DNA from: a virus
Virus record (IMG/VR): IMGVR_UViG_3300046168_000039
Coordinates: 1-43,169 of that record
Length of the DNA: 43,169 nucleotides
Strand: one strand, 5' to 3'
Position 1 is the stretch's first letter. Every line of letters starts with the position of its first letter. Of this stretch, positions 165-39,571 are shown piece by piece. Below the pieces are notes generated by a model. It searched no databases and was not told where the DNA came from. It saw nothing but the letters and a program-made list of their open reading frames with translations. The position numbers and the translations under genes were made by a program.

Positions 165-244
165 GTGATTAAATACCCCACAATCATCGCACAAATGATG
201 CACACGATGATTAATCCCCAATCTGCATAATCTTCCCAATTCAT
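161..244 (-). CDS. 27-residue single-pass membrane microprotein
   Basis: A 27-codon frame is wedged between the helicase loader and the next gene, with an ATGA overlap at both ends. The product has a short acidic, aromatic N-terminus (MNWEDYADWG), then about 17 hydrophobic residues (LIIVCIICAMIVGYLI), which is enough for one membrane helix. No family is recognised. The double start/stop overlap is the main evidence that it is translated. Its function is unknown. A second 27-residue membrane peptide with the same double-overlap layout lies at 35872-35955. Confidence 0.5.
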   Translation of the reverse strand: MNWEDYADWGLIIVCIICAMIVGYLIT

Positions 245-969
245 ACCTTGAATACCTCCTGTTTTTCAGTGTTATTAAAAATAAAGACCTCACTGGTCTC
301 TCTCAGTCTTTCCAAAAGTGCGTGACCTCTACGCTTGTCCAAAAATAGACTAATTGCTTCCTTTGATTTCACTTGAGTGGTAATGAGATTTGGAAGCTTC
401 CGTGCCATCCGTTGTTCGATAACCTCAAATAAGCCCTTCTGCGTTGTCTCCGTTAGCTTTTCAGCAAAGAGGTCATCGATTGCGAGAACTGGCACTGTAG
501 TGACCTCCTTGAACCACTGACGGTATTGTGTGCCTCGCTTGGCATCCACCAGTTCCGTGTGAAAGTCACCTGCAAAGAATGCCTTGAATAAAATGCGTTG
601 CTTGTGGAGTTGCTGAAGTAGCAAACAGAGTGATCTGGTCTTGCCCTGTCGTGAATCACCGAGCAAATACAACCCTTTCTTGCGGTTTAAATCCCATGTG
701 AGGATATTTGCTAGGTTATCCTTACCTGCCTTGGGCAAACGGTTTAATTCAGTCTCACGGTAGAACACTGGGATTAAATCCTCAATAGGTGCTTGGTAGC
801 CTACCGCAGGTGGTTCATTAGCCTCTCTCTCATGGTATGCATCGCAACAAGTGTCACACACTGCTACATCCTGTCTGCCTCCAAATAAAGGTTGATTGAT
901 TAGTTCCTCTGTCCAACCAGAGTCTTCACCGCATTCTCGGCATGGAATAATTGTTGTTGTAGTTGTCAT
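241..969 (-). CDS. DnaC-like replicative helicase loader (AAA+ ATPase)
   Basis: The 242-residue product has a Walker A motif GDSRQGKT at about residues 104-111, a Walker B VLAIDD at 161-166 and a sensor-like TTQ near 198. This is the layout of DnaC/IstB-type AAA+ ATPases. N-terminal pairs CREC (10-13) and CDTC (38-41) could bind zinc. Helicase loaders of this family deliver the host DnaB helicase to an origin marked by an initiator. Here the gene directly follows a putative initiator that contains an iteron array, the same order as lambda O and P. No phage helicase is visible, so the host helicase is the likely partner. The family is clear; the loader role is inferred from context. Confidence 0.8.
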   Translation of the reverse strand: MTTTTTIIPCRECGEDSGWTEELINQPLFGGRQDVAVCDTCCDAYHEREANEPPAVGYQAPIEDLIPVFYRETELNRLPKAGKDNLANILTWDLNRKKGLYLLGDSRQGKTRSLCLLLQQLHKQRILFKAFFAGDFHTELVDAKRGTQYRQWFKEVTTVPVLAIDDLFAEKLTETTQKGLFEVIEQRMARKLPNLITTQVKSKEAISLFLDKRRGHALLERLRETSEVFIFNNTEKQEVFKV

Positions 970-972
970 AAA

Positions 973-1425
973 TTAAAAATCGTCTTCAGTGAAATTACCG
1001 TTCGTTACGGTCACTGGTTTTGCCTCAAGTGTTTTCTTTCCGAAATACCATCCAACATACCCAGATGATATCGCCCTGTTTAAACGGTCTATGATTCCAT
1101 CAATTCCTTCGACCTCATAGATTGCCTCAAAGTCACGAAATGCTTGTTTGAGTTGGGAATCCTTAATTGTCTTCCGCTTGGATTTGCAGTAGTTGCACCA
1201 ATCGTCCCATGCCTCTTCCAATGTTGGGTCACTTATTATTAATTTATATTTATTATTATTTAATATATATAATATATAAGGTGCACCTTGAGAACTGGGT
1301 ATGGTATCACCAGTGGTATCACTGTTGGTATCACTGGTGATACCACTGCCCTTTTTCTCAACCTCGCCAGTCACAGTTAAATTTGTAGTAATGGTATCAC
1401 CAGTGATACCACTTTTCTTGATCAT
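973..1425 (-). CDS. Putative replication initiator (lambda O-like position), contains the origin
   Basis: The frame is open from an ATG at 1503 (176 residues). The ATG at 1425 (150 residues) is preferred because it lies 4 bases after the stop of the upstream gene and is preceded by GGTGAT, a match to the 3' part of the Shine-Dalgarno consensus. The N-terminal part is low-complexity and is encoded by the iterons (GDT and GIT repeats), followed by a stretch encoded by pure A/T. The C-terminal half looks like a folded helical domain (PTLEEAWDDWCNYCK ... GYVGWYF), similar in feel to C-terminal parts of phage replication proteins. Its partner would be the DnaC-like loader just downstream. The initiator role is inferred from gene order and embedded repeats, not from a recognised DNA-binding fold. 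Confidence 0.55.
   Translation of the reverse strand: MIKKSGITGDTITTNLTVTGEVEKKGSGITSDTNSDTTGDTIPSSQGAPYILYILNNNKYKLIISDPTLEEAWDDWCNYCKSKRKTIKDSQLKQAFRDFEAIYEVEGIDGIIDRLNRAISSGYVGWYFGKKTLEAKPVTVTNGNFTEDDF
1233..1279. other. A/T-only tract, probable DNA unwinding element
   Basis: These 47 consecutive bases contain no G or C. The tract lies 24 bases from the nearest iteron and inside the coding frame of the putative initiator, where it encodes a Y/I/L/N/K-rich segment. Origins of the lambda O and plasmid Rep type place such a tract next to the iterons as the site of first melting. That role is inferred here from composition and position. Confidence 0.65.
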
Positions 1426-1501
1426 GGTATCACCAGGTGATACCACTTTCATTTTGCGATCTTGGTTGAATGGTATCACTGGTGATACCACTGGTGATAC
1501 C
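1303..1501. repeat. Iteron array: 11 copies of GGTATCAC in both orientations
   Basis: On the plus strand GGTATCAC starts at 1303, 1315, 1327, 1393, 1426 and 1472. Its reverse complement GTGATACC starts at 1337, 1403, 1437, 1482 and 1494. Four pairs face each other as GGTATCAC-(2 or 3 bases)-GTGATACC. Copies at 1303/1315/1327 and at 1482/1494 are spaced 12 bases apart, close to one helical turn. The array lies inside the putative initiator frame and the end of the ribbon-helix-helix gene. Beside an A/T-only tract, this is the architecture of an iteron-type replication origin. Confidence 0.8.
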
Positions 1502-1654
1502 ATTCAAAGCCAAGTTTGTGCATCGTTTGTGCTCAATGATACAATGTTTCACTGCCTCATTGATGCTCAAACCATACTCCTCGCAGAGTTCACCAATGTA
1601 CTCTTTTAAAGCCACTGGTAACCTCAAGGTTACTTTATAATCAGAATGGGACAT
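1430..1654 (-). CDS. Arc/MetJ-like ribbon-helix-helix DNA-binding protein
   Basis: The 74-residue product begins with a strand-like YKVTLRLPVALKEYI segment followed by EYGLSINEAVKHCI, which is the strand-helix-helix pattern of Arc-type repressors. The ATG at 1654 is chosen over an upstream extension because GAGGAGG lies about 5 bases before it, within the end of the SSB-like gene (14-base overlap). The C-terminal tail (NGITSGITSDTI) is translated from the origin iterons. Arc-family proteins are usually small transcriptional repressors. Its own position on the iterons makes autoregulation or an origin-accessory role possible, but neither is shown. Confidence 0.7.
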   Translation of the reverse strand: MSHSDYKVTLRLPVALKEYIGELCEEYGLSINEAVKHCIIEHKRCTNLALNGITSGITSDTIQPRSQNESGITW

Positions 1655-2105
1655 CGTCCTCCTCTTCCTCACCGTACACCTCATTATCGATTGCATCTTG
1701 TACGGTTTCAGATGCATCAGTGCCATTATCCCTTACCTCAATGTCCTCTGCGGTAGTCGCTTTATTCCACTTGATAATGCATTTGTAACCTCCCTTATTT
1801 TCTCCAGTCACTCCACTAAATGATTCTCCAATTATTTGGTCAAATGCTCCCAGTGTTAACTCCCAAGAACCATCTTCTTTCTGCGATGCGATTTCCTCAA
1901 AAGCAGGTGCAGTTAAGCCAAATGCTTCAAATACAACCTCCGTTTTCCAGTGTGCCTTCTTCGAGAAAAATAGTGACTCGTAAATTGCATCATCCTCACC
2001 ATTTCCGATCATCATAGTAATGTATCGGTTACCTTTTCTGGTAACTAGCGTTTCCCCATCTTTATTCTCAGTAAAGATATCAATTAATTTTAAGTTTTGT
2101 TCCAT
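1641..2105 (-). CDS. Putative single-stranded DNA-binding protein with SSB-type acidic tail
   Basis: The 154-residue product ends in EEEEDDVPF, closely resembling the C-terminal tip (DDDIPF) by which bacterial SSB recruits host repair and replication proteins. The body is beta-rich (RYITMMIGNGEDDAIYES, GGYKCIIKW), compatible with an OB-like fold, but I do not recognise a canonical SSB core. It lies among recombination and replication genes downstream of the ERF protein and exonuclease. The tail is seen directly; the ssDNA-binding function is inferred from tail and context. A DUF669-like phage SSB is the main alternative description. Confidence 0.6.
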   Translation of the reverse strand: MEQNLKLIDIFTENKDGETLVTRKGNRYITMMIGNGEDDAIYESLFFSKKAHWKTEVVFEAFGLTAPAFEEIASQKEDGSWELTLGAFDQIIGESFSGVTGENKGGYKCIIKWNKATTAEDIEVRDNGTDASETVQDAIDNEVYGEEEEDDVPF

Positions 2106-6578: not shown

Positions 6579-6774
6579 TTTCCTCTGGATTCTTTGGTTC
6601 TGGTTCTACATCTGGGAGTGTCTGGGCGATAGTTGCTGAGATAATAGTATTAGCGTTGTCTGGGAATATATTGCCCTTCCATCCGATGCCACTCGCTTCA
6701 GCACTTTTTTTCAAATACTCTGATTTTTGGGCAAAGGTCATTTTTTTCAATTCTTCTGAAGTAGGCTTATTCAT
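6562..6774 (-). CDS. Hypothetical protein following the giant virion gene
   Basis: The 70-residue frame starts with an ATGA overlap on the stop of the 2353-residue gene. The product has a helical N-terminus (SEELKKMTFAQKSEYLKKS) and an acidic, proline-rich end (DVEPEPKNPEENEREN). No family is recognised. Coupling to the giant gene suggests late expression and possibly a virion or morphogenesis role. Confidence 0.6.
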   Translation of the reverse strand: MNKPTSEELKKMTFAQKSEYLKKSAEASGIGWKGNIFPDNANTIISATIAQTLPDVEPEPKNPEENEREN

Positions 6775-9700
6775 TTCTTTATCCTACCACTTTTACTTGA
6801 TGAATCAAAAAGATAATTTGTCTTTGCAGACTTTCTTAAATTACCTCCAATTAAATCTGTTGATTTTCCTTCTCCTAAAATATTCTTTCCAAGTGTCTGA
6901 AATTGCTTCTCGGAAAAATACGATGACCTGCCCTCGTTGGCTTTATCTTGGGGTCTGTATGCCCATAGGATGTTTTTCTTCTGTGCCTTGGTTGCCTTCT
7001 TTTTGTCCTTACTTTTCACCCTGTCTGTTAAGCGTTTAAACGCTTTCTTTTCAACAGTCCCTTTTGTGAAATAATTTTTCTTTTCATTTGATTTGAAAAT
7101 AGTCTTTACCTCTTCCTTCATCAAAACCGCATCATCCTTGTCGAGGAATCCCTCTAATCCTGCAATGTCCACTAGTTCTTGAACCTCTGCCATCGCATTC
7201 TCTCTGAGCTTAGAGGTATTGTAGTGCTTACTGGAAACTTTCTCAGCTTGATTGTAAATTCTTTGAACTGAGTCTGCTACCTGCGGTAAACCATCATACT
7301 TGCGGTTCTGTAAATTATTTATTTTAGCCTTAGTAAGATTAAAAACATCTCTTGCAAATGCAGTCCGTGCGGTAGGTCTTTCTGGCTTAACTGGCATCGA
7401 ATCTGATCGAGTGTAATTATCTGCAACTAACTGCTCAGTTTTATATGTAGGTACATTGTGCTTACCCATGATCTGTCTTATTGCAGTTTCATTGTTAATT
7501 ATCTCATTCGATAACCTCTCTGGTTTGTAGTACAAGTCAGCAATAAACATCCCCTCGGTTGATTCCGTAAACCCAGTAAGGAAACTATCACCATCACCAT
7601 CAACTAAGGTTGAGAGGTCAGTGAAGAAATTCTTTTTCTGGGTAGCATCGAGTTGAGTGGTGTCAAAGGTAACTGCTTCATTGAGTCCACCCATATTAAC
7701 CTCTTTGACTGTTGGTCTACGGAAAACATTACCATCCGCTTGATCAAGTCCTCTACTAATTTCTACCATCACTTGGTTCACCACTGATGGGTCACCCTTT
7801 AGTGCCATTGTGATGTTAGGTGCTACCGCAGTGACTCCATTCTCAGTGTATCCACCTTGCCCTACCTTGACCTCATCAACCCTCATTCTAAGACCGTGAC
7901 CATCCGCAATCTGTTGCAGTTGTTCACCAAGTCCCTGCGAAAACTTTTCGGTTATTGCTTGTTGCCCCATTAATTTTTCTTGAGCTTGAACTGCAAGTGC
8001 TTCTTTGGATGCACCAAATGTAGTCACCTCAAATGGTAAAATTTGTGTTGCCGTTTTATTATATGAGTCGGTAACCGCAGACATTATTTGTGTGGCACTT
8101 GTCGGCAATTCTCCACCAAAAGTTTTGTCCGCTTGAGTCATCAACATATCAATTACCTGCTGACTATTTGGTAAATCTTTTACCGACTGTATCTGTTGAC
8201 CTAACTCTGACAATTTCATCGTTGCCTCATACAACGGTGTAAACCTATCCCCAAATAAAACTAAATTTTGATTGGCAGGTAATGGATTATCTAGCTTGGT
8301 TAATGCCCATAAAATTTCCTGTGCATTCCTCGCATATAATTTCTTCTTACCAAAAAATTTAGCGTACCCTGCCTTATTTAATTCATCTGCAATGAGACCA
8401 TCTACGGTCTGGTGGGCATCATACAATGCACCTCCACCCTTGGGTGTTAAACCGTCTTCGTCTGCCTTGGTGTAGTAAGACCATTCCGTAGTAGCATCAA
8501 TAGGTTCATTCTGCCTTACCGCCCAGTTGTCCTCATTCCAATCTTTTCTGCCATCAATCTGGAGAGCATTAGCTTGCTGATGCTTAATCTCCTTGGTGTG
8601 CTGATACCGCATCTGTTTCATTGCCTCGTTCCAGTACTTACCGTGTGCTTTATGAACCTTTCTATGCTTCTCCACTGACCAGTGAAAGGGCGATTTCATC
8701 TGTTGTTTTGCTCGCTTAGAGATTGGAATGTAGGCAGGGTGAGCGTATCCCTTTCCTGCCATATCCCACATATCTACTGTGGCTAAACCATCCAGTAATT
8801 GTTGGAGTTTAATCGCATCTTTAGGTGATAAATTCTGCCCCTTCTTGGTCAATCCAAGTGTCTTAGATGCACGGTCAAGAAGTATATCCACATCTCTTTG
8901 AGTACCCTCTACCTTAGCAATCTCGATTAGTTCAGCTAGACCATTAAGGTAAAAATTTCTTACCTTGTCATCAGCACCAATGGCATCTGGATCAAGGACT
9001 TCAAAGTGCTCTCCCCTATCCCATTCTTTTGCGGTACGGTTACCTGCAATCTGTTGATCAGCAGGATTAATCTTATGCCCTGCCCTTGATCCATGAGGGT
9101 GCATCATTGACCGTGCTGACTTAGTCATATTTGCTGACACTGCTGACCGTGGAGAACCTAGTGCTAGGAATCTTAACTGTAGGTCTGCGACATCGAACAA
9201 AGTCCTTTCTGGGAACTTTATAACCTGTGCCATTTGATAGGCAGTGTTCCCCATGTCCGAATAAAACAGTGCCGTTCTTTGTGCAAAGTCTGGATACTTT
9301 TCTTTAGTATATTCTATTTTCGTAACAATAGATTTAATGAGGTCAGTCACATCCTTGTAACTTGAGAACATACCTTTTTTATTGGCATTAATAATTCCCA
9401 TTCTGGCAGGTAGTGCAACACTACCATCAATTTCATTATCACCGTAATCTTTGATAGTCAATTGTGACTCTACTGCCTTCTTGTTACCCTCTAGTTTTTT
9501 AATCTTATGGGTAAGTTCAACATGATACTTCGCATCACCGTATGCCTTTGACCACTCTCCTCCCAGTGCCTCCTCAATTGATTTATTTGGGTTCTCCTTG
9601 AGCACCTGTTTTTGCTCTGGAGTGAGTGAGTCTATAGCATAGGAAAGAGTATCCTTTTTAATTTGCTCTGCTTCTTTAGCTTGCTTTTCTGCCAATTGCT

Positions 9701-12700
9701 CTGGGGTCAACTTACCCTTGGAGGGCATAAACTTGATATTAGGTTTTCCTTGCTCAATTGACCCATCTTTATTGATGATTAACCACTCTGGCATTGGATA
9801 TTCATCACTGATTACTTTTGCAATAACTGTATCATTTTTGCCATTTTCGTAACTTATGAGACCTTTGTCGTGTAATCTGTCTAAGGCATTTATTTGATAA
9901 AATGTCGTGCGGACTCTAGAAAGGGGTACTGGGTCTGAACTTTTTTTCGGAAAAGCAATTAAGTTATTATCACCATCCTTTAAACCACTACCCTCTTTAC
10001 CTTTGGATGGCATGAAGCTTCGTCCTTCTGGAACAAAGGCAGGAGGATAAGAAATTGAAGTTGGTTTAGACTTAGTCCCTACCTCAATATCGTGGAACAT
10101 AAATCCAACATGATCGTTAGGAGCATACATCCCAAGAAACCCTTGTTTCTTTAAGAAAGTTTCAAATGCAGTCTGCCTACCTGCACCTATAGTGTTTCCA
10201 GTCTTTCCGTTACCTGCCTCTTGTATCCCTTGTTCCGCAACAAATGCCTCAAAGTCGTACAGGAACTCTTTAGTATTATAATGAGGTTTGCCAGTCCAAA
10301 GATTATTTTTATCAATCTTTGTGTGGTGTGCGAAATCTGTAATTAAACCTTTCTCTGGCTTATAATTTCCATCACCAAAATATGTTCTATTAGAATATAA
10401 TTCTGGGTAGTTTGCCTTGCGACTACCTTCCGCACCTTTTATTCCAGTGCCATGAAAGTCAGTCTTTAGGACTTTTCTTCTGACTGGTCTGGTTGGGAAG
10501 TGGACGAAGTCAACGAATCCTCCTCCTTCTTCAACTCTGCCCTTCTCTCCTCTGATAGATAAGGGTGATCCGTCATGTTCATACCCATCTTTGAGACGAT
10601 TTCCTCCGCTTCTTCTTGGGTCATCTTGGCGATAATTTCTGCGTAGTTTGGAATCATAATCTATTGGTTTTAATTGTTTATCAACTGACATTACACCGTT
10701 CTCTATGGCAGTGGCAATGTCATTGTTTAATCCTAAGTGAAGTGATTTTTGGAAATCTAAAGTGCCATCTGGTTTCCAGATATCTTGACTTCTTAAATGG
10801 GACTCCATTCGCATATTGCCCTCATTCGGTCTGTACATTGGGTAAGGTTTTAATCTACCACTGAACTCACCACTCTCAATGTTCTTCAAAGATGGCATAA
10901 ATGAAGTCGTACCACTCCAATTTATTTTCCTTTGCTTGGCATGATTCATACCCACTGATCTGGAGGGCATGAAATTATTCTTCATGTTGTTGTAGTCTAC
11001 TGCGAAACCTTTTGTGCCAGTAGTATTTGCTCCCACTAACTCACCGATCTGGTAACTCTTAATGGCATTTTTCATACCATTGCCTTCCTTTGCCCAGAAC
11101 TGTTTATTAATTGGGTCTTTTAAAACATCTGCTTTAAGTGTGGTAGAACCAAATGCAATTGCAAATAATTCATTCTCCCCTTTTCCCTGTGGATTAATGG
11201 GGTCTTCTCTACCGTATTTCTTAAATGCATTTTGTGCGTGTGCAGTCAATGCATCTGCAAATTTCTGTGGGTCATTATTGTATTTTTTTAACAACCCTGC
11301 CTGTGCCATTGCTTGGATATTCGACTCAACAATTTCATTATTATATGCCATCACCTTCATGGATGGATACGAAATTTTTTCTTCCCCAGTTTTTCTATTT
11401 TTATTTTTTCTGGGTGCTTTAGGGGAGAACTGATAACCGAATAAAGTTATGTCATGGATGTAATATGGATTGTAGTCTGACCACTGTCCTTGGTGACCAC
11501 TTCTCTTTCCAATCCGAACTCGTTCTCTAGATGCAATCAAGGTATCTACCATGTCCACAATTGCATCCATCACATCTGGACGAAGTGAATTATTTTTCAA
11601 GTAGTCACGAATGAGAGGATGCATATTTTGATTAGAGGCATCCCTTCCAAGACCAACATATTTCTTATCTAAATCCTTGGTCACCTTTTCCATGATGTCG
11701 CTAAACTCATCGAACATCTGTTGGTCTTTTAAAATAAAATCATTACCTGCTAATAAGTCCCAAGTCAGTCCACCATTGGTTTTTTTGAATGAAGACTGTG
11801 CAGTGTCACCTTGTTTTGGAAAAACTTTCTGACCAGTGTCAACCGCATCTGCCCTCGCCTGTTGAACCTCCATTGCCTCACTTAAATAGTTCTTATAAAG
11901 ATTCTTTAATGGTTTTGGAATTTTAGCAAAAGGTAGGATTGCATTCTCTGCCCCAGTCTTTGGGTTTATGATTCCAAATTTTGCCAATGCATCTCTCGCA
12001 CCACCAAGTAACAGTGAACGAAATTGTGGTTCAAACATATCAAAAACATTTGGATTCTGTCCGAAATAAGTGGCAAACATATCTGCACCCATTTCCTCTG
12101 CAAGCATACCTGCGTCCTTTAAAATTCTATCTGCTTGCTCTGGACTTGTCTTGCGAACACGGTCTGCATAATTCTGTGCGAATGACATTGCCTCACCGTT
12201 TAAACGCACTGACTCCATTCCTTTTATTTTGTTCCCATCCTTATCAAGGAAGAAAAATTCTTTACCCTCTGGGTCTTCATAACTTTCAAGAACCTGCCTT
12301 CTGGTTGTGATGTCTTTCCCTAAATGTTGTTGCATGAAGTGATGCCCAAACTCATGTGCGAAAATATGGGATGCCTCTGCCACTGCACCCTGCATATCAT
12401 TTTTATTTAAAATCATTAACCCCATATCACGATCATAGTGGGCAGACGGTGCATCTTTTGGATCAAGTCCCAATGCACCTGCAAACTCATTCAGATCGAC
12501 TATCTGCATCCGCATTTTTTCAACTGGTGCAAGTGCATCCATAGTTGAAAGTAAAACTGCACTGGATGGACTTGCCTTTGCTAACTCAGTAATTGCCTCA
12601 GTGTGTATGACAGAATTTTTCTTTGCAATATACTCACGAATACCCTGCTGAGATCGTGCGGTAAGATTCCCTCTGACATCTAATGCATTGCTATCCTTAC

Positions 12701-13832
12701 CACTACCTCGTTGTCCAATTGCACCACCGATCCCACCACCCATTCCAAGACCAGTACCGAATGCCATACCTGCCTGTTCATCAGTTGCACCACTAGCATA
12801 CTGAAGTGCAGATTGTAGTATCCCTGCGGATGTTCCACCTACCATTGCATCGAATGCAACATCGTACATTTTCGTGCCAAGAAGTTTATGGGAAGTTGTC
12901 GCTAGTTTTCTGACCTTCTCACTTACATTTGGATCAGTTGCTAGACGATATAAAAATCTTTCATGCGAACTTGGTCTGGCAAAAACTCGTGCAATATCAG
13001 CACTGTTCCTACCTATCTTTTCTCCATACTTAGTTGCTATCTTTCCAATCTCTAAAGCAACTGGTGCAAGCCAGATGGAACTACCTCCATCGACAAACGC
13101 ACTCACTCCAATAAATGACGAAACTTTTCCTGCGGTTGAACCTGCTATTTTTTCTGGAACTTTAAGACCTCGATGAACTGTGCCTAAACCTTTTGCTCCA
13201 TACTCTAAAATTGGTGCTACTGTTTTTGCACCTCCCTTGATCACACCTCTGACTCCTCCAGTGTAACCCTTGACGAGCACTCCACTGCCTCCTGCGATAT
13301 TTGTTATGTCGGCAATGTCTGCTCCTGCCCTCATGTCCCCCATGTACTTTCCACCTGCCTTTGCCTCGATTAATTTCTCACGAGCATCTGTCATGTAATT
13401 AATCATCTCAACTTGTCTGCGGTGATGATTCGCTTTCTTGGTTTCCTCTGGAAGATCATCATCCTCATTGAATCGCTCAACAATCATTTTGCCGATTCTA
13501 GCTAAGTCTCTAGTGCCAACCTCTGGCATTGCCATAAGTGCTTTGTATGCATCTGGGTCACCCTTGCCTCCTAGTACCTCTGGCAGTAAACCCTTAACTA
13601 TTGACTCATCATTTAAAGCACCTCCCCAAGTCTCTTCAAAGTAATCGATCATTTCTGGAATTGCTCCAATAAATGCTTTTGTCGATTGCCATGTAGACCT
13701 ATTTTTTTGCCGATCATACTCTGCATCAGATTCTGCACGAGTAGGTATAAGACTATTCCTCTTAGGAACTTTTACATTTTGCTTCGTGGTTGGAAGCTTC
13801 CTAAAGGATGATGGAAGTTTTATTTCTGGCAT
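6771..13832 (-). CDS. Giant polyvalent internal virion protein with zinc-peptidase motif and ART-like region
   Basis: The 2353-residue product is of the kind called phage polyvalent proteins, which are packaged and injected with DNA. Residues about 170-375 contain glycine-rich, partly hydrophobic stretches that could contact membranes. A gluzincin-type zinc site is visible: HEFGH at 493-497 with a downstream AEEMGADMFATYFG that can supply the third ligand. Residues about 1105-1270 (FVDFVHF, FHGTG with H1127, NRTYFGDGNYKPEKG, then a glycine-rich GFLGMYAP) resemble the ADP-ribosyltransferase-like domain of polyvalent proteins. The tetrapeptide FMPS recurs at F954, F978, F1273 and F1368, around that region. 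The long C-terminal part is helical and unassigned. Expected role: ejection and early host takeover. Peptidase motif confident, ART assignment moderate. Confidence 0.75.
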   Translation of the reverse strand: MPEIKLPSSFRKLPTTKQNVKVPKRNSLIPTRAESDAEYDRQKNRSTWQSTKAFIGAIPEMIDYFEETWGGALNDESIVKGLLPEVLGGKGDPDAYKALMAMPEVGTRDLARIGKMIVERFNEDDDLPEETKKANHHRRQVEMINYMTDAREKLIEAKAGGKYMGDMRAGADIADITNIAGGSGVLVKGYTGGVRGVIKGGAKTVAPILEYGAKGLGTVHRGLKVPEKIAGSTAGKVSSFIGVSAFVDGGSSIWLAPVALEIGKIATKYGEKIGRNSADIARVFARPSSHERFLYRLATDPNVSEKVRKLATTSHKLLGTKMYDVAFDAMVGGTSAGILQSALQYASGATDEQAGMAFGTGLGMGGGIGGAIGQRGSGKDSNALDVRGNLTARSQQGIREYIAKKNSVIHTEAITELAKASPSSAVLLSTMDALAPVEKMRMQIVDLNEFAGALGLDPKDAPSAHYDRDMGLMILNKNDMQGAVAEASHIFAHEFGHHFMQQHLGKDITTRRQVLESYEDPEGKEFFFLDKDGNKIKGMESVRLNGEAMSFAQNYADRVRKTSPEQADRILKDAGMLAEEMGADMFATYFGQNPNVFDMFEPQFRSLLLGGARDALAKFGIINPKTGAENAILPFAKIPKPLKNLYKNYLSEAMEVQQARADAVDTGQKVFPKQGDTAQSSFKKTNGGLTWDLLAGNDFILKDQQMFDEFSDIMEKVTKDLDKKYVGLGRDASNQNMHPLIRDYLKNNSLRPDVMDAIVDMVDTLIASRERVRIGKRSGHQGQWSDYNPYYIHDITLFGYQFSPKAPRKNKNRKTGEEKISYPSMKVMAYNNEIVESNIQAMAQAGLLKKYNNDPQKFADALTAHAQNAFKKYGREDPINPQGKGENELFAIAFGSTTLKADVLKDPINKQFWAKEGNGMKNAIKSYQIGELVGANTTGTKGFAVDYNNMKNNFMPSRSVGMNHAKQRKINWSGTTSFMPSLKNIESGEFSGRLKPYPMYRPNEGNMRMESHLRSQDIWKPDGTLDFQKSLHLGLNNDIATAIENGVMSVDKQLKPIDYDSKLRRNYRQDDPRRSGGNRLKDGYEHDGSPLSIRGEKGRVEEGGGFVDFVHFPTRPVRRKVLKTDFHGTGIKGAEGSRKANYPELYSNRTYFGDGNYKPEKGLITDFAHHTKIDKNNLWTGKPHYNTKEFLYDFEAFVAEQGIQEAGNGKTGNTIGAGRQTAFETFLKKQGFLGMYAPNDHVGFMFHDIEVGTKSKPTSISYPPAFVPEGRSFMPSKGKEGSGLKDGDNNLIAFPKKSSDPVPLSRVRTTFYQINALDRLHDKGLISYENGKNDTVIAKVISDEYPMPEWLIINKDGSIEQGKPNIKFMPSKGKLTPEQLAEKQAKEAEQIKKDTLSYAIDSLTPEQKQVLKENPNKSIEEALGGEWSKAYGDAKYHVELTHKIKKLEGNKKAVESQLTIKDYGDNEIDGSVALPARMGIINANKKGMFSSYKDVTDLIKSIVTKIEYTKEKYPDFAQRTALFYSDMGNTAYQMAQVIKFPERTLFDVADLQLRFLALGSPRSAVSANMTKSARSMMHPHGSRAGHKINPADQQIAGNRTAKEWDRGEHFEVLDPDAIGADDKVRNFYLNGLAELIEIAKVEGTQRDVDILLDRASKTLGLTKKGQNLSPKDAIKLQQLLDGLATVDMWDMAGKGYAHPAYIPISKRAKQQMKSPFHWSVEKHRKVHKAHGKYWNEAMKQMRYQHTKEIKHQQANALQIDGRKDWNEDNWAVRQNEPIDATTEWSYYTKADEDGLTPKGGGALYDAHQTVDGLIADELNKAGYAKFFGKKKLYARNAQEILWALTKLDNPLPANQNLVLFGDRFTPLYEATMKLSELGQQIQSVKDLPNSQQVIDMLMTQADKTFGGELPTSATQIMSAVTDSYNKTATQILPFEVTTFGASKEALAVQAQEKLMGQQAITEKFSQGLGEQLQQIADGHGLRMRVDEVKVGQGGYTENGVTAVAPNITMALKGDPSVVNQVMVEISRGLDQADGNVFRRPTVKEVNMGGLNEAVTFDTTQLDATQKKNFFTDLSTLVDGDGDSFLTGFTESTEGMFIADLYYKPERLSNEIINNETAIRQIMGKHNVPTYKTEQLVADNYTRSDSMPVKPERPTARTAFARDVFNLTKAKINNLQNRKYDGLPQVADSVQRIYNQAEKVSSKHYNTSKLRENAMAEVQELVDIAGLEGFLDKDDAVLMKEEVKTIFKSNEKKNYFTKGTVEKKAFKRLTDRVKSKDKKKATKAQKKNILWAYRPQDKANEGRSSYFSEKQFQTLGKNILGEGKSTDLIGGNLRKSAKTNYLFDSSSKSGRIKK
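10466..10657 (-). CDS. Possible overprinted gene inside the giant virion gene
   Basis: A 63-codon ATG frame lies in another frame of the same strand, over residues about 1059-1122 of the giant protein. Its product has unusually protein-like composition (IIAKMTQEEAEEIVSKMG, then EERRAELKKEEDS). In the same stretch the giant protein is oddly R/G-rich and low-complexity (RQDDPRRSGGNRLKDGYE). No Shine-Dalgarno is present. It may be a chance frame in a 7-kb gene, so this is a low-confidence call. Confidence 0.2.
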   Translation of the reverse strand: MIPNYAEIIAKMTQEEAEEIVSKMGMNMTDHPYLSEERRAELKKEEDSLTSSTSQPDQSEEKS

Positions 13833-26538: not shown

Positions 26539-27156
26539 TTAAACTGTGGTAAAAGTTAACACACCATTGGAAATAGAGATAGAGACTCCTGCTGATCCGT
26601 CTGCTCCTGCACTCCCTGCATCTCCCTTATCTCCTTTATCACCTTTTTGCCCAGTTCCTCCAGTTTGTCCAGTTTGTCCAGTATCACCCTTTAGGTTAGT
26701 ATAAGAACCCATAGAACCATTTGCATTTTGAAATCGCAGACTAGTTCCACTCCAACCGTGACTAGGAATATCACCTTTAACACCTTGTGCTCCCTGTGCT
26801 CCTGTTGCACCATTTGCACCATTTGCACCAGTATCTCCAGTATCCCCTTTATCACCCTTAACACCTTGGATTCCTTGGATTCCTTGAATACCTTGATCAC
26901 CAGTGTCACCCTTAACACCTTGGATTCCTTGGTCTCCAGTATTTCCCTTTAAACCAAATTCCCCTTGATCTCCCTTACTGGACATCACTTCCCATAAATT
27001 TGAAAAGTTGTCTGGGTCTTGTCCTGCACTGGTTACCGCAACACAAATGTAACTCGTTCCATTAAAATTTACTACATCATCTACAATGTAAGATGTTGCG
27101 TTATCGAAATTGCCTTTCCAGACAAATTTTATTCTTCCTAAATTTACAGTTGCCAT
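26539..27156 (-). CDS. Collagen-like tail fibre, 205 residues
   Basis: Residues about 10-60 form a W/Y-rich module (VWKGNFDNATSYIVDDVVNF, then NLWEVMSS) like carbohydrate-binding type 5/12 units. After it come two blocks of Gly-X-Y triplets (GIQGIQGIQGVKGDKGDTG, and GQTGQTGGTGQKGDKG), interrupted by a non-collagen segment (SHGWSGTSLRFQNANG). Phage collagen-like segments form trimeric fibre shafts. The strongly biased triplets produce long false frames on both strands here. Confidence 0.8.
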   Translation of the reverse strand: MATVNLGRIKFVWKGNFDNATSYIVDDVVNFNGTSYICVAVTSAGQDPDNFSNLWEVMSSKGDQGEFGLKGNTGDQGIQGVKGDTGDQGIQGIQGIQGVKGDKGDTGDTGANGANGATGAQGAQGVKGDIPSHGWSGTSLRFQNANGSMGSYTNLKGDTGQTGQTGGTGQKGDKGDKGDAGSAGADGSAGVSISISNGVLTFTTV

Positions 27157-35956: not shown

Positions 35957-36547
35957 TTAATTGATGGTTAGTTCTGTTGATCCGCATGACCAACATTGAA
36001 AGTGTTCGTGATCGATTTCATCGATAACTTTACGAGAGGCACGAACCTTAAATCCGCACTCACATTCGATTTTAATCTGACGAGTGGTTTGCTTTTTATG
36101 ACCACTGGAAATGTCGATTTTCTTGTGAGGATAATCACCGTAACGCTTTACATACTTTACAAGTAAGTCGTAAAGTGGTGTGCCTTCCACTGCGGTGCAT
36201 TCGGTAGGTTTACCCTCAAGTCCAACTGCACGAGCAATATCAGTAAAGGCTTTACCATGACCAGACTGGCAATCGTCAATCGCATGACATAATTCGTGAA
36301 TCAATATGCCAAGCACTTTGATTGAATTATCAACTGTTGGACTAACGAAAACCTCGTTTACTCCTGCGGTTGAGCATGACCTTGAATAGCACTCACCAAT
36401 TCTGCGTTTGCGTTGAGTGAATGCACCTTTGCTTGGTAAAGAGCATGACACTCTAACATCAGCAGGAACGGTCTGACCGTTTTTCGTGAATAATGATTTG
36501 GACAACCTTTCTGTTGCCTTGCGTAAATAAGTTTCCCTGTCATTCAT
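35957..36547 (-). CDS. SprT-like zinc metalloprotease with zinc ribbon
   Basis: The 196-residue product carries HELCHAID with H84, E85 and H88 plus a third ligand H97 in SGHGKAF, the SprT/Spartan layout. A C-terminal zinc ribbon (CECGFKVRA ... FQCWSCGS) completes the family architecture. SprT-like proteins in eukaryotes degrade DNA-protein crosslinks; in phages the role is unknown and may be removal of host proteins from DNA. The ATG at 36547 lies 7 bases after the -10 of promoter module C; there is no Shine-Dalgarno. Confidence 0.85.
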   Translation of the reverse strand: MNDRETYLRKATERLSKSLFTKNGQTVPADVRVSCSLPSKGAFTQRKRRIGECYSRSCSTAGVNEVFVSPTVDNSIKVLGILIHELCHAIDDCQSGHGKAFTDIARAVGLEGKPTECTAVEGTPLYDLLVKYVKRYGDYPHKKIDISSGHKKQTTRQIKIECECGFKVRASRKVIDEIDHEHFQCWSCGSTELTIN

Positions 36548-36613
36548 GATTAAAACAATAATATTAATTATTATATAAAGCAAGCACTAAATAAAAATAT
36601 CCTGTGTCATAAA
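36548..36613 (-). promoter_or_regulatory. Conserved promoter-like module, copy C
   Basis: On the minus strand TTGCTT (36583-36578), 17 bases, TATTGT (36560-36555), then 7 bases to the ATG of the SprT-like gene. The TTTATGACAC box (36613-36604) lies 20 bases upstream of the -35 and overlaps the stop of the preceding gene. Shares GCAAGCACTAAAT (plus strand) with copies A and D. Confidence 0.65.
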
Positions 36614-36858
36614 GTTGCAATGTCTTTTATGCCTCTAATTTCCTTTAGGTATTTGATTTGTATCACCAAATCTCCGCTAAGAATATTAATTGCTTCCAAT
36701 TGTTTTAGGGTATCACCCTTTCCAGATTGGCATTTGTTTGCCAATTTCTGGATGGTCTTTTTGGCTTTAAATATTCTTTCTCTGGTCTCGGAAAATTCTT
36801 CATCACCTTTCCACTCCCAGAGTGCCTTTGCGTTTTCGTTAGATATATTTCCACTCAT
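36607..36858 (-). CDS. Hypothetical helical protein, 83 residues
   Basis: The product is helical (WEWKGDEEFSETRERIFKAK, then KTIQKLANKCQSGKGDTLKQ). AGGAA lies about 8 bases before the ATG. Its stop lies within the TTTATGACAC box of module C. No family is recognised. Confidence 0.55.
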   Translation of the reverse strand: MSGNISNENAKALWEWKGDEEFSETRERIFKAKKTIQKLANKCQSGKGDTLKQLEAINILSGDLVIQIKYLKEIRGIKDIATL

Positions 36859-38433: not shown

Positions 38434-38721
38434 TTAGTCTGATATGTGGTATAATGATACGAATGGTTTTGGGTCTTTTTCAGTACCGTACAACTTGTTT
38501 AAACGGTCTGCCTCGGCATCTGCCTTTTCACCGTCCAGATCAAATGATCCGCAGAATGCCTTAAAGTAATACTTGGGATAAGAGTTATATCTACCGTAGT
38601 GCGTGTGACCTCCGAAAAGTTTATCAGCACCGTGATCCCACCCCTCGCCCTTTTTGGCTTTATTGAAAGGAGTGACCCTATCGCATAAATATTGAATAAA
38701 ATAAAAATCAAATGTGTTCAT
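38434..38721 (-). CDS. Hypothetical protein under module B, 95 residues
   Basis: ATG at 38721 lies 7 bases after the -10 of module B. The product is aromatic and charged (FDFYFIQYLCDRVTPFNKAK, HTHYGRYNSYPKYYFKAFCG) with a helical EKADAEADRLNKLYG. No family is recognised. Confidence 0.55.
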   Translation of the reverse strand: MNTFDFYFIQYLCDRVTPFNKAKKGEGWDHGADKLFGGHTHYGRYNSYPKYYFKAFCGSFDLDGEKADAEADRLNKLYGTEKDPKPFVSLYHISD

Positions 38722-38776
38722 AATTAAGACAATAATATTTATTAGTATGCAATGCAAGAAGTTCTTGTGTCATAAA
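38722..38776 (-). promoter_or_regulatory. Conserved promoter-like module, copy B
   Basis: On the minus strand TTGCAT (38757-38752), 17 bases, TATTGT (38734-38729), then CTTAATT and the ATG. The TTTATGACAC box (38776-38767) lies 9 bases upstream of the -35 and includes the stop of the previous gene. Together with copy E it forms the short-gap subtype. Confidence 0.65.
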
Positions 38777-39495: not shown

Positions 39496-39531
39496 AATTA
39501 AGACACTAATTTTAATTATAATAAAAAGCAA
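39496..39531 (-). promoter_or_regulatory. Conserved promoter-like module, copy A
   Basis: On the minus strand TTGCTT (39531-39526), 17 bases, TAGTGT (39508-39503), then CTTAATT and the ATG at 39495. It shares the CTAAAT extension with copies C and D. Its TTTATGACAC box is at 39662-39653, 121 bases upstream, with hairpins in between. Confidence 0.65.
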
Positions 39532-39571
39532 GCCCTAAATGAAATTCTTTTTTGGCAAGTCAAGAAATCGC

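Follow-up and report, generated by a model that had tools for sequence, protein, structure and literature searches.

Lambda O binds iterons that lie inside its own gene beside an A/T tract, a step that is followed by theta replication (PMC3349717, PMC7466680). In lambda O and its origin, and in the O proteins of lambdoid and Stx phages, the gene runs from a DNA-binding domain through the iterons and the A/T tract to a C-terminal domain, and the helicase loader gene comes next (PMC3349717, PMC7466680). The locus described here shares this order. It lies in the window, which is the whole 43,169-nucleotide stretch of viral DNA that was analysed. The segment at 1233-1501 is very probably a theta-type replication origin located in the gene of its own initiator; judged from its sequence and from the analogy, it would follow the logic of lambda with a non-homologous, ribbon-helix-helix (RHH) DNA-binding domain. 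The first-pass annotation had drawn the parallel with the lambda origin in O, and the intragenic, iteron-type layout with a loader gene next to it supports that comparison. It had also remarked that the repeats do not match those of lambda, which is correct: the boxes are 8-10 bp long and often inverted or 12 bp apart, whereas lambda has four 18-bp iterons. The phage also differs from lambda in its DnaC/IstB-like loader and in a GC element between the boxes and the A/T run.

Several RHH proteins act on plasmid replication as copy-control factors. CopG, ORF56 of pRN1, and PrpA are fold neighbours of the domain described below but are separate small regulators without a fused initiator domain. 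Omega of pSM19035, also an RHH protein, places one dimer on each 5'-WATCACW-3' repeat (PMC9499535). Omega resembles the present system in its RHH fold, its short non-palindromic repeats, and their ATCAC core (PMC9499535), and by this resemblance an RHH protein could plausibly recognise the TATCAC box. Unlike the present protein, omega functions in partition and repression, binds contiguous 7-bp repeats, has a ParA partner, and carries no fused initiator domain.

Butyrivibrio phage Bo-Finn and Phage nd4 (replisome organiser, then DnaC loader) have the same gene order of SSB, initiator, and loader. Their initiators differ, however, in matching other PHROGs, and Bo-Finn has an N-terminal Phage_rep_org_N domain, with no RHH found. 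No description of an RHH-fused phage initiator was found in the open-access literature, and the combination of such an initiator with a lambda-type intragenic origin appears to be a new variation on a known design.

The box array and the initiator gene

Counted across the 43-kb window, 11 exact GGTATCAC/GTGATACC boxes are packed into 199 bp (Table 1), exactly the eleven half-sites in 199 bases reported by the first-pass annotation. Their start-to-start distances are 12, 12, 10, 56, 10, 23, 11, 35, 10, and 12. The direct pairs are thus 12 bp apart and the inverted pairs 10 bp apart (one at 11), and both the inverted repeats and the 12-base spacings described earlier are present. The only exact GGTATCAC copy outside the array in the 43 kb is at position 36709. 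With one mismatch allowed, none of 100 dinucleotide shuffles equalled the GGTATCAC total, and no other 8-mer in the window clusters as densely (11 copies vs 3 for the runner-up). GC skew is uninformative about an origin in the window, since the major genes all lie on one strand.

Table 1. Coordinates of the candidate origin and of the genes around it
Feature	Position	Strand	Basis or remark
DnaC-like/IstB helicase loader	241-969	-	phrog_50 'DnaC-like helicase loader' E 2.3e-17; IstB E 5.5e-9
ORF B, remaining linker and C-terminal O-like domain (about 973-1286)	973-1503	-	phrog_678 match
A/T run (47 bp, pure A/T), putative DNA unwinding element	1233-1279		encodes YILYILNNNKYKLII; A/T content vs synonymous versions
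GGTGCACC palindrome	1280-1287		touches the A/T run; occupies the place of the relatives' conserved CTCGCGCGCRCC element
Candidate origin array, 11 GGTATCAC boxes	1303-1501		box count, spacing, 8-mer density
GGTATCAC boxes (n=6)	starts 1303, 1315, 1327, 1393, 1426, 1472	+	
GGTATCAC boxes (n=5)	starts 1337, 1403, 1437, 1482, 1494	-	
Spacer (CAG, 3 bp) of the third inverted pair	1434-1436		spacing 11 vs 10; relatives in frame
ORF A, N-terminal part of the initiator (74 aa, MSHSDYKVTLRLP...)	1430-1654	-	RHH domain 1505-1654, then start of the linker
Conserved upstream gene	1641-2105	-	acidic ..DDVPF tail; stop overlaps the initiator start

The array spans the overlap of ORF A and ORF B. In the sister phages L012 and L013/L014, the same region is a single ORF of 226 or 211 aa. 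L012 (3300046168_000053, 43.2 kb) has a C-terminus that is 96% identical to that of the window. The spacer is 2 bp long in the other three inverted pairs, and the one extra base in the spacer of the third pair accounts for the split into two frames. Misassembly or a true mutation would explain this base; a recoding site is the least likely of the three options. A pattern search found no near-identical record against which to check the frameshift. ORF A ends with a TGA, and the frame of ORF B has an ATG four bases further on (TGATACCATG, 1423-1432, minus strand). In the window record, translation could in principle restart at this ATG and yield the C-terminal part as a product of its own.

The array had been placed inside an initiator gene with boundaries at 973-1425. 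The intragenic position holds, as the single ORF of the relatives indicates, but the gene model does not: the RHH domain is encoded upstream and, in the window record, in the other frame. The 973-1425 product alone was rejected as the DNA-binding initiator since it is without the DNA-binding domain, and a footprint of that product would be expected to be negative even if the origin idea is right.

The DnaC-like loader was correctly recognised as the gene adjoining the array, and it is a conserved neighbour across the related loci. On the other side, the product of the conserved upstream gene is SSB-like by its tail and position and has no confident family match.

A family of related initiators

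Scans of IMG/VR yielded 17 related initiator genes, and the window makes 18 loci. All 17 genes encode the RHH domain, linker, and C-terminal domain in one ORF upstream of a DnaC-like loader, and, in the loci whose flank was available, they lie downstream of the conserved gene with the acidic SSB-like tail. In these relatives the order is RHH domain, disordered box-encoded linker, A/T run within the gene, and O-like C-terminus, with the loader gene next. In 17 of the 18 loci (window included), the most densely repeated 8-mer of several kb sits in the initiator linker; the array of L035 is looser. Among the isolate phages searched, no recognisable relative of the initiator was found. A scan of genome contigs with the loader alignment gave pattern matches but no relative.

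Each of the 17 genes has its own box within the linker, and the box sequence varies by group. The DNA-facing beta strand of the RHH domain and the box pair as follows: YKVTLRLP with TGGTATCAC (window, L013); YKTVLRLP with GTAGTACTAC (L012); (Y/C)KLTLRLP with GTGAGGTCA or TGAGGTCA (L008, L021, L022); FKLNLRLP with TGGCCCCA (L019, L020); YSITVKLS with CACCAAAT (L026); RLTI(T/R)(L/I)P with TGCTGTCA (L031, L033, L034, L038, L042); YTITIRLP with GGTATCA (L035); KTSSIRLP with GCGAAATG (L044, L046); and HQLPLRIP with GAGATATCTC (L047).

The A/T run and the GC element

The A/T run is the longest in the window (the second longest is 23 bp), and its A/T content was matched by none of 2000 synonymous versions of the same peptide. 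Its length of 47 bp is as first described; the first box lies 23 bp away and not 24. Under the approximation that window codon usage applies to all 18 genes, the A/T stretch is richer than the peptide requires in 16 of them (≤32 of 2000 synonymous versions), and in the other two, L038 and L042, the excess is without significance.

In most relatives the element CTCG(C/T)GCGC lies between the boxes and the A/T run, and the group of the window has GGTGCACC instead. The element is read as PSRAP in one codon frame and as LVRT or LART in another, and because two different frames read it, it seems to be conserved as DNA. The sequence CTCGCGCGCRC followed by AATAATAATA within 45 bp also occurs in viral contigs that are not recognisably of the initiator family (L049:451-509; L058:7823-7864; L050, minus strand, 1099-1145). 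Iteron-like repeats lie beside it, namely GTCCCC in L049 and TGACAACCG with TTGTCA in L058, and the element may be a wider phage origin motif. Matches to the GC-element pattern in a scan of genome contigs look like chance occurrences in coding or intergenic DNA.

Domains of the initiator

The N-terminal domain (1505-1654) matches a PHROG of Arc-like repressors (1.3e-5) and matches Pfam RHH_1, but below the cut-off. An AlphaFold2 monomer model built from 18 family members has a mean pLDDT of 82.9. In a first structural comparison, its PDB neighbours were MatP, Arc, AmrZ, and CopG; in a second, they were AtaR, NikR, PutA, and CopG, with Z of 5-6.5 and nearly all of the RHH fold. The domain is therefore assigned, on the strength of this model, to the RHH (MetJ/Arc/CopG) fold because its neighbours are consistent; the single scores are modest, as expected for 50 residues.

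The full-length model has a strand at 6-11 and helices at 14-27 and 31-50, followed by a low-confidence region at 45-109 that corresponds to the box-encoded linker, and then strands and two long helices. Its mean pLDDT is low at 55, and the C-terminal fold and loader contact are only putative. A Foldseek search with this model returned nothing below E 1. At the sequence level, residues 89-132 of ORF B match phrog_678, 'replication initiation O-like' (1.5e-5), and the C-terminal part matches this PHROG in 12 of 17 members (best 1.4e-9). Lambda O and the RHH initiators match opposite halves of PHROG 678: lambda O aligns with positions 4-216, and the family members mainly with about 216-290. The N-terminal DNA-binding domain of the lambda O type is absent, with the RHH domain there instead, and the simplest reading would be that the RHH domain replaced it.

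Alternative functions of the boxes

The boxes might be only an operator at which the RHH protein acts as a repressor of its own gene or of the loader gene, with the origin elsewhere. The fusion of the RHH domain to an O-like domain makes this unlikely, as does the position of the array deep inside the gene and away from any start. The array also always adjoins an A/T run with more A/T than the codons demand, ahead of a helicase loader, and the 43-kb window contains no second cluster of GGTATCAC boxes. It is true that Arc, CopG, omega, and other RHH proteins are mostly repressors and that the PHROG label of the domain is Arc-like repressor; autorepression is, though, compatible with binding at an origin.

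That the boxes form a parS-like partition site for an RHH ParB, on the model of omega of pSM19035, is highly improbable. The omega repeat 5'-WATCACW-3' resembles the TATCAC[CT] boxes and is likewise non-palindromic and found in mixed orientation, but full omega activity needs four contiguous heptads (PMC9499535). The boxes here are 10-12 bp apart with gaps, and the integrase gene suggests maintenance through integration. This reading was rejected as no ParA-type Walker ATPase was found in the window, whose record misses about 0.8 kb present in the sister genome.

The codon evidence bears on whether the repeats are DNA sites at all. When synonymous codons were permuted within each gene, 16 of the 17 genes had a best 8-mer count that no more than 2 of 1000 shuffles reached; for L035, the exception, 7-mers gave 0 of 1000. 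In 10 of the 17 genes the boxes are spread over two or three codon phases, and the spacing 32-34-32-46-32 is kept in five divergent genes (L031, L033, L034, L038, and L042). The excess over synonymous shuffles, together with the several codon phases, argues that the boxes are conserved as DNA. That the repeats are a low-complexity protein linker grown by duplication, with no DNA role, is scarcely credible and was rejected on the codon phases and the shuffles: although the GGTATCAC, GTGAGGTCA, and TGGCCCCA groups keep one codon phase within each orientation (GITS, SEV, and GPT peptides), duplication of a peptide repeat gives no pattern of several phases, and inverted copies and a constant spacing across divergent genes also speak against it.

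Joint change of the RHH domain and the boxes

Within the family, box similarity tracks the RHH domain rather than the C-terminus. Across 14 representatives, RHH identity and box similarity are correlated (Mantel r 0.56, p 0.0002, the p being indicative as the sequences are related), and the partial correlation given the C-terminus is 0.51. The correlation of the C-terminus with box similarity is 0.28, and the partial value given the RHH domain is -0.04.

Two comparisons illustrate this relationship. The DNA of L044/L046 is 82-90% identical to that of L045 until 2 nt upstream of the initiator ATG, and identity returns about 15 bp before the GC element. In the segment between, the RHH domain is 29% identical and the boxes are different. 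L044 and L046 thus read as a natural exchange of an RHH-plus-box cassette in an otherwise homologous locus. Over their first 48 residues, the RHH domains of L008 and L019 share 85% identity; L008 has the DNA-facing strand K-L-T-L-R and GTGAGGTCA boxes, and L019 has K-L-N-L-R (T to N) and TGGCCCCA boxes. TCA is present in all four box groups whose readers have Thr in mid-strand (T-x-R/T motif) and not in the five others, a post hoc pattern that is no proof.

On balance, a wider picture seems to us rather more probable than its opposite: a temperate phage family, without members among the isolate phages searched, uses RHH initiators whose 'reader plus address' cassettes are swapped whole or re-tuned by a few changes to the strand that reads the DNA, which would keep the origins of co-infecting relatives apart.

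Proposed mechanism

Sequence comparison of the related loci shows the domain order, a constraint at the DNA level on boxes and A/T run alike, and a box sequence that changes together with the RHH domain; binding, melting, and helicase loading are inferred. RHH dimers formed by the N-terminal domains of the initiator would bind the GGTATCAC boxes through a two-stranded beta ribbon. The dimers would coat the array, and their flexible linkers would set the C-terminal O-like domains beside the A/T run. By analogy with lambda, the adjoining A/T run would then melt, and the C-terminal domain together with the DnaC-like loader would recruit the host replicative helicase. Use of the host replisome is consistent with the gene content: no replicative helicase was recognised among the window proteins scanned, and of the types of P-loop motif sought, the window has two only, in the terminase and the loader.

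If this is true, a second, unrelated DNA-binding fold has arrived at the lambda-type intragenic origin design, and replication initiators join the repressors, antitoxins, and partition proteins already known among RHH proteins. The family supplies natural pairs in which near-alike RHH domains go with different boxes, and these pairs offer a direct way to test the RHH recognition code and how origin specificity evolves.

Other features of the phage genome

The phage looks temperate because the window proteins include matches to an integrase (5.6e-7) and an excisionase-like protein (6.3e-6). The sister genome L012 continues across the window ends 1 and 43169, with about 0.77 kb between them. A circular or circularly permuted genome is probable, of which the record would be slightly incomplete. 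No Rfam match and no tRNA was found. Three A/T-rich leaders at 36545-36600, 38720-38775, and 39497-39550 (minus strand; ..TTGCTTTATATAATAATTAATATTATTGTTTTAATTATGAA..) closely resemble one another; each precedes a gene, and they may be copies of a phage promoter with its leader. In the genome's structural half, a 2353-aa ORF (6771-13832) dominates, and another ORF among the structural genes (26539-27156) encodes collagen-like G-x-y repeats (GxQGxQGxKGDxGDxG).
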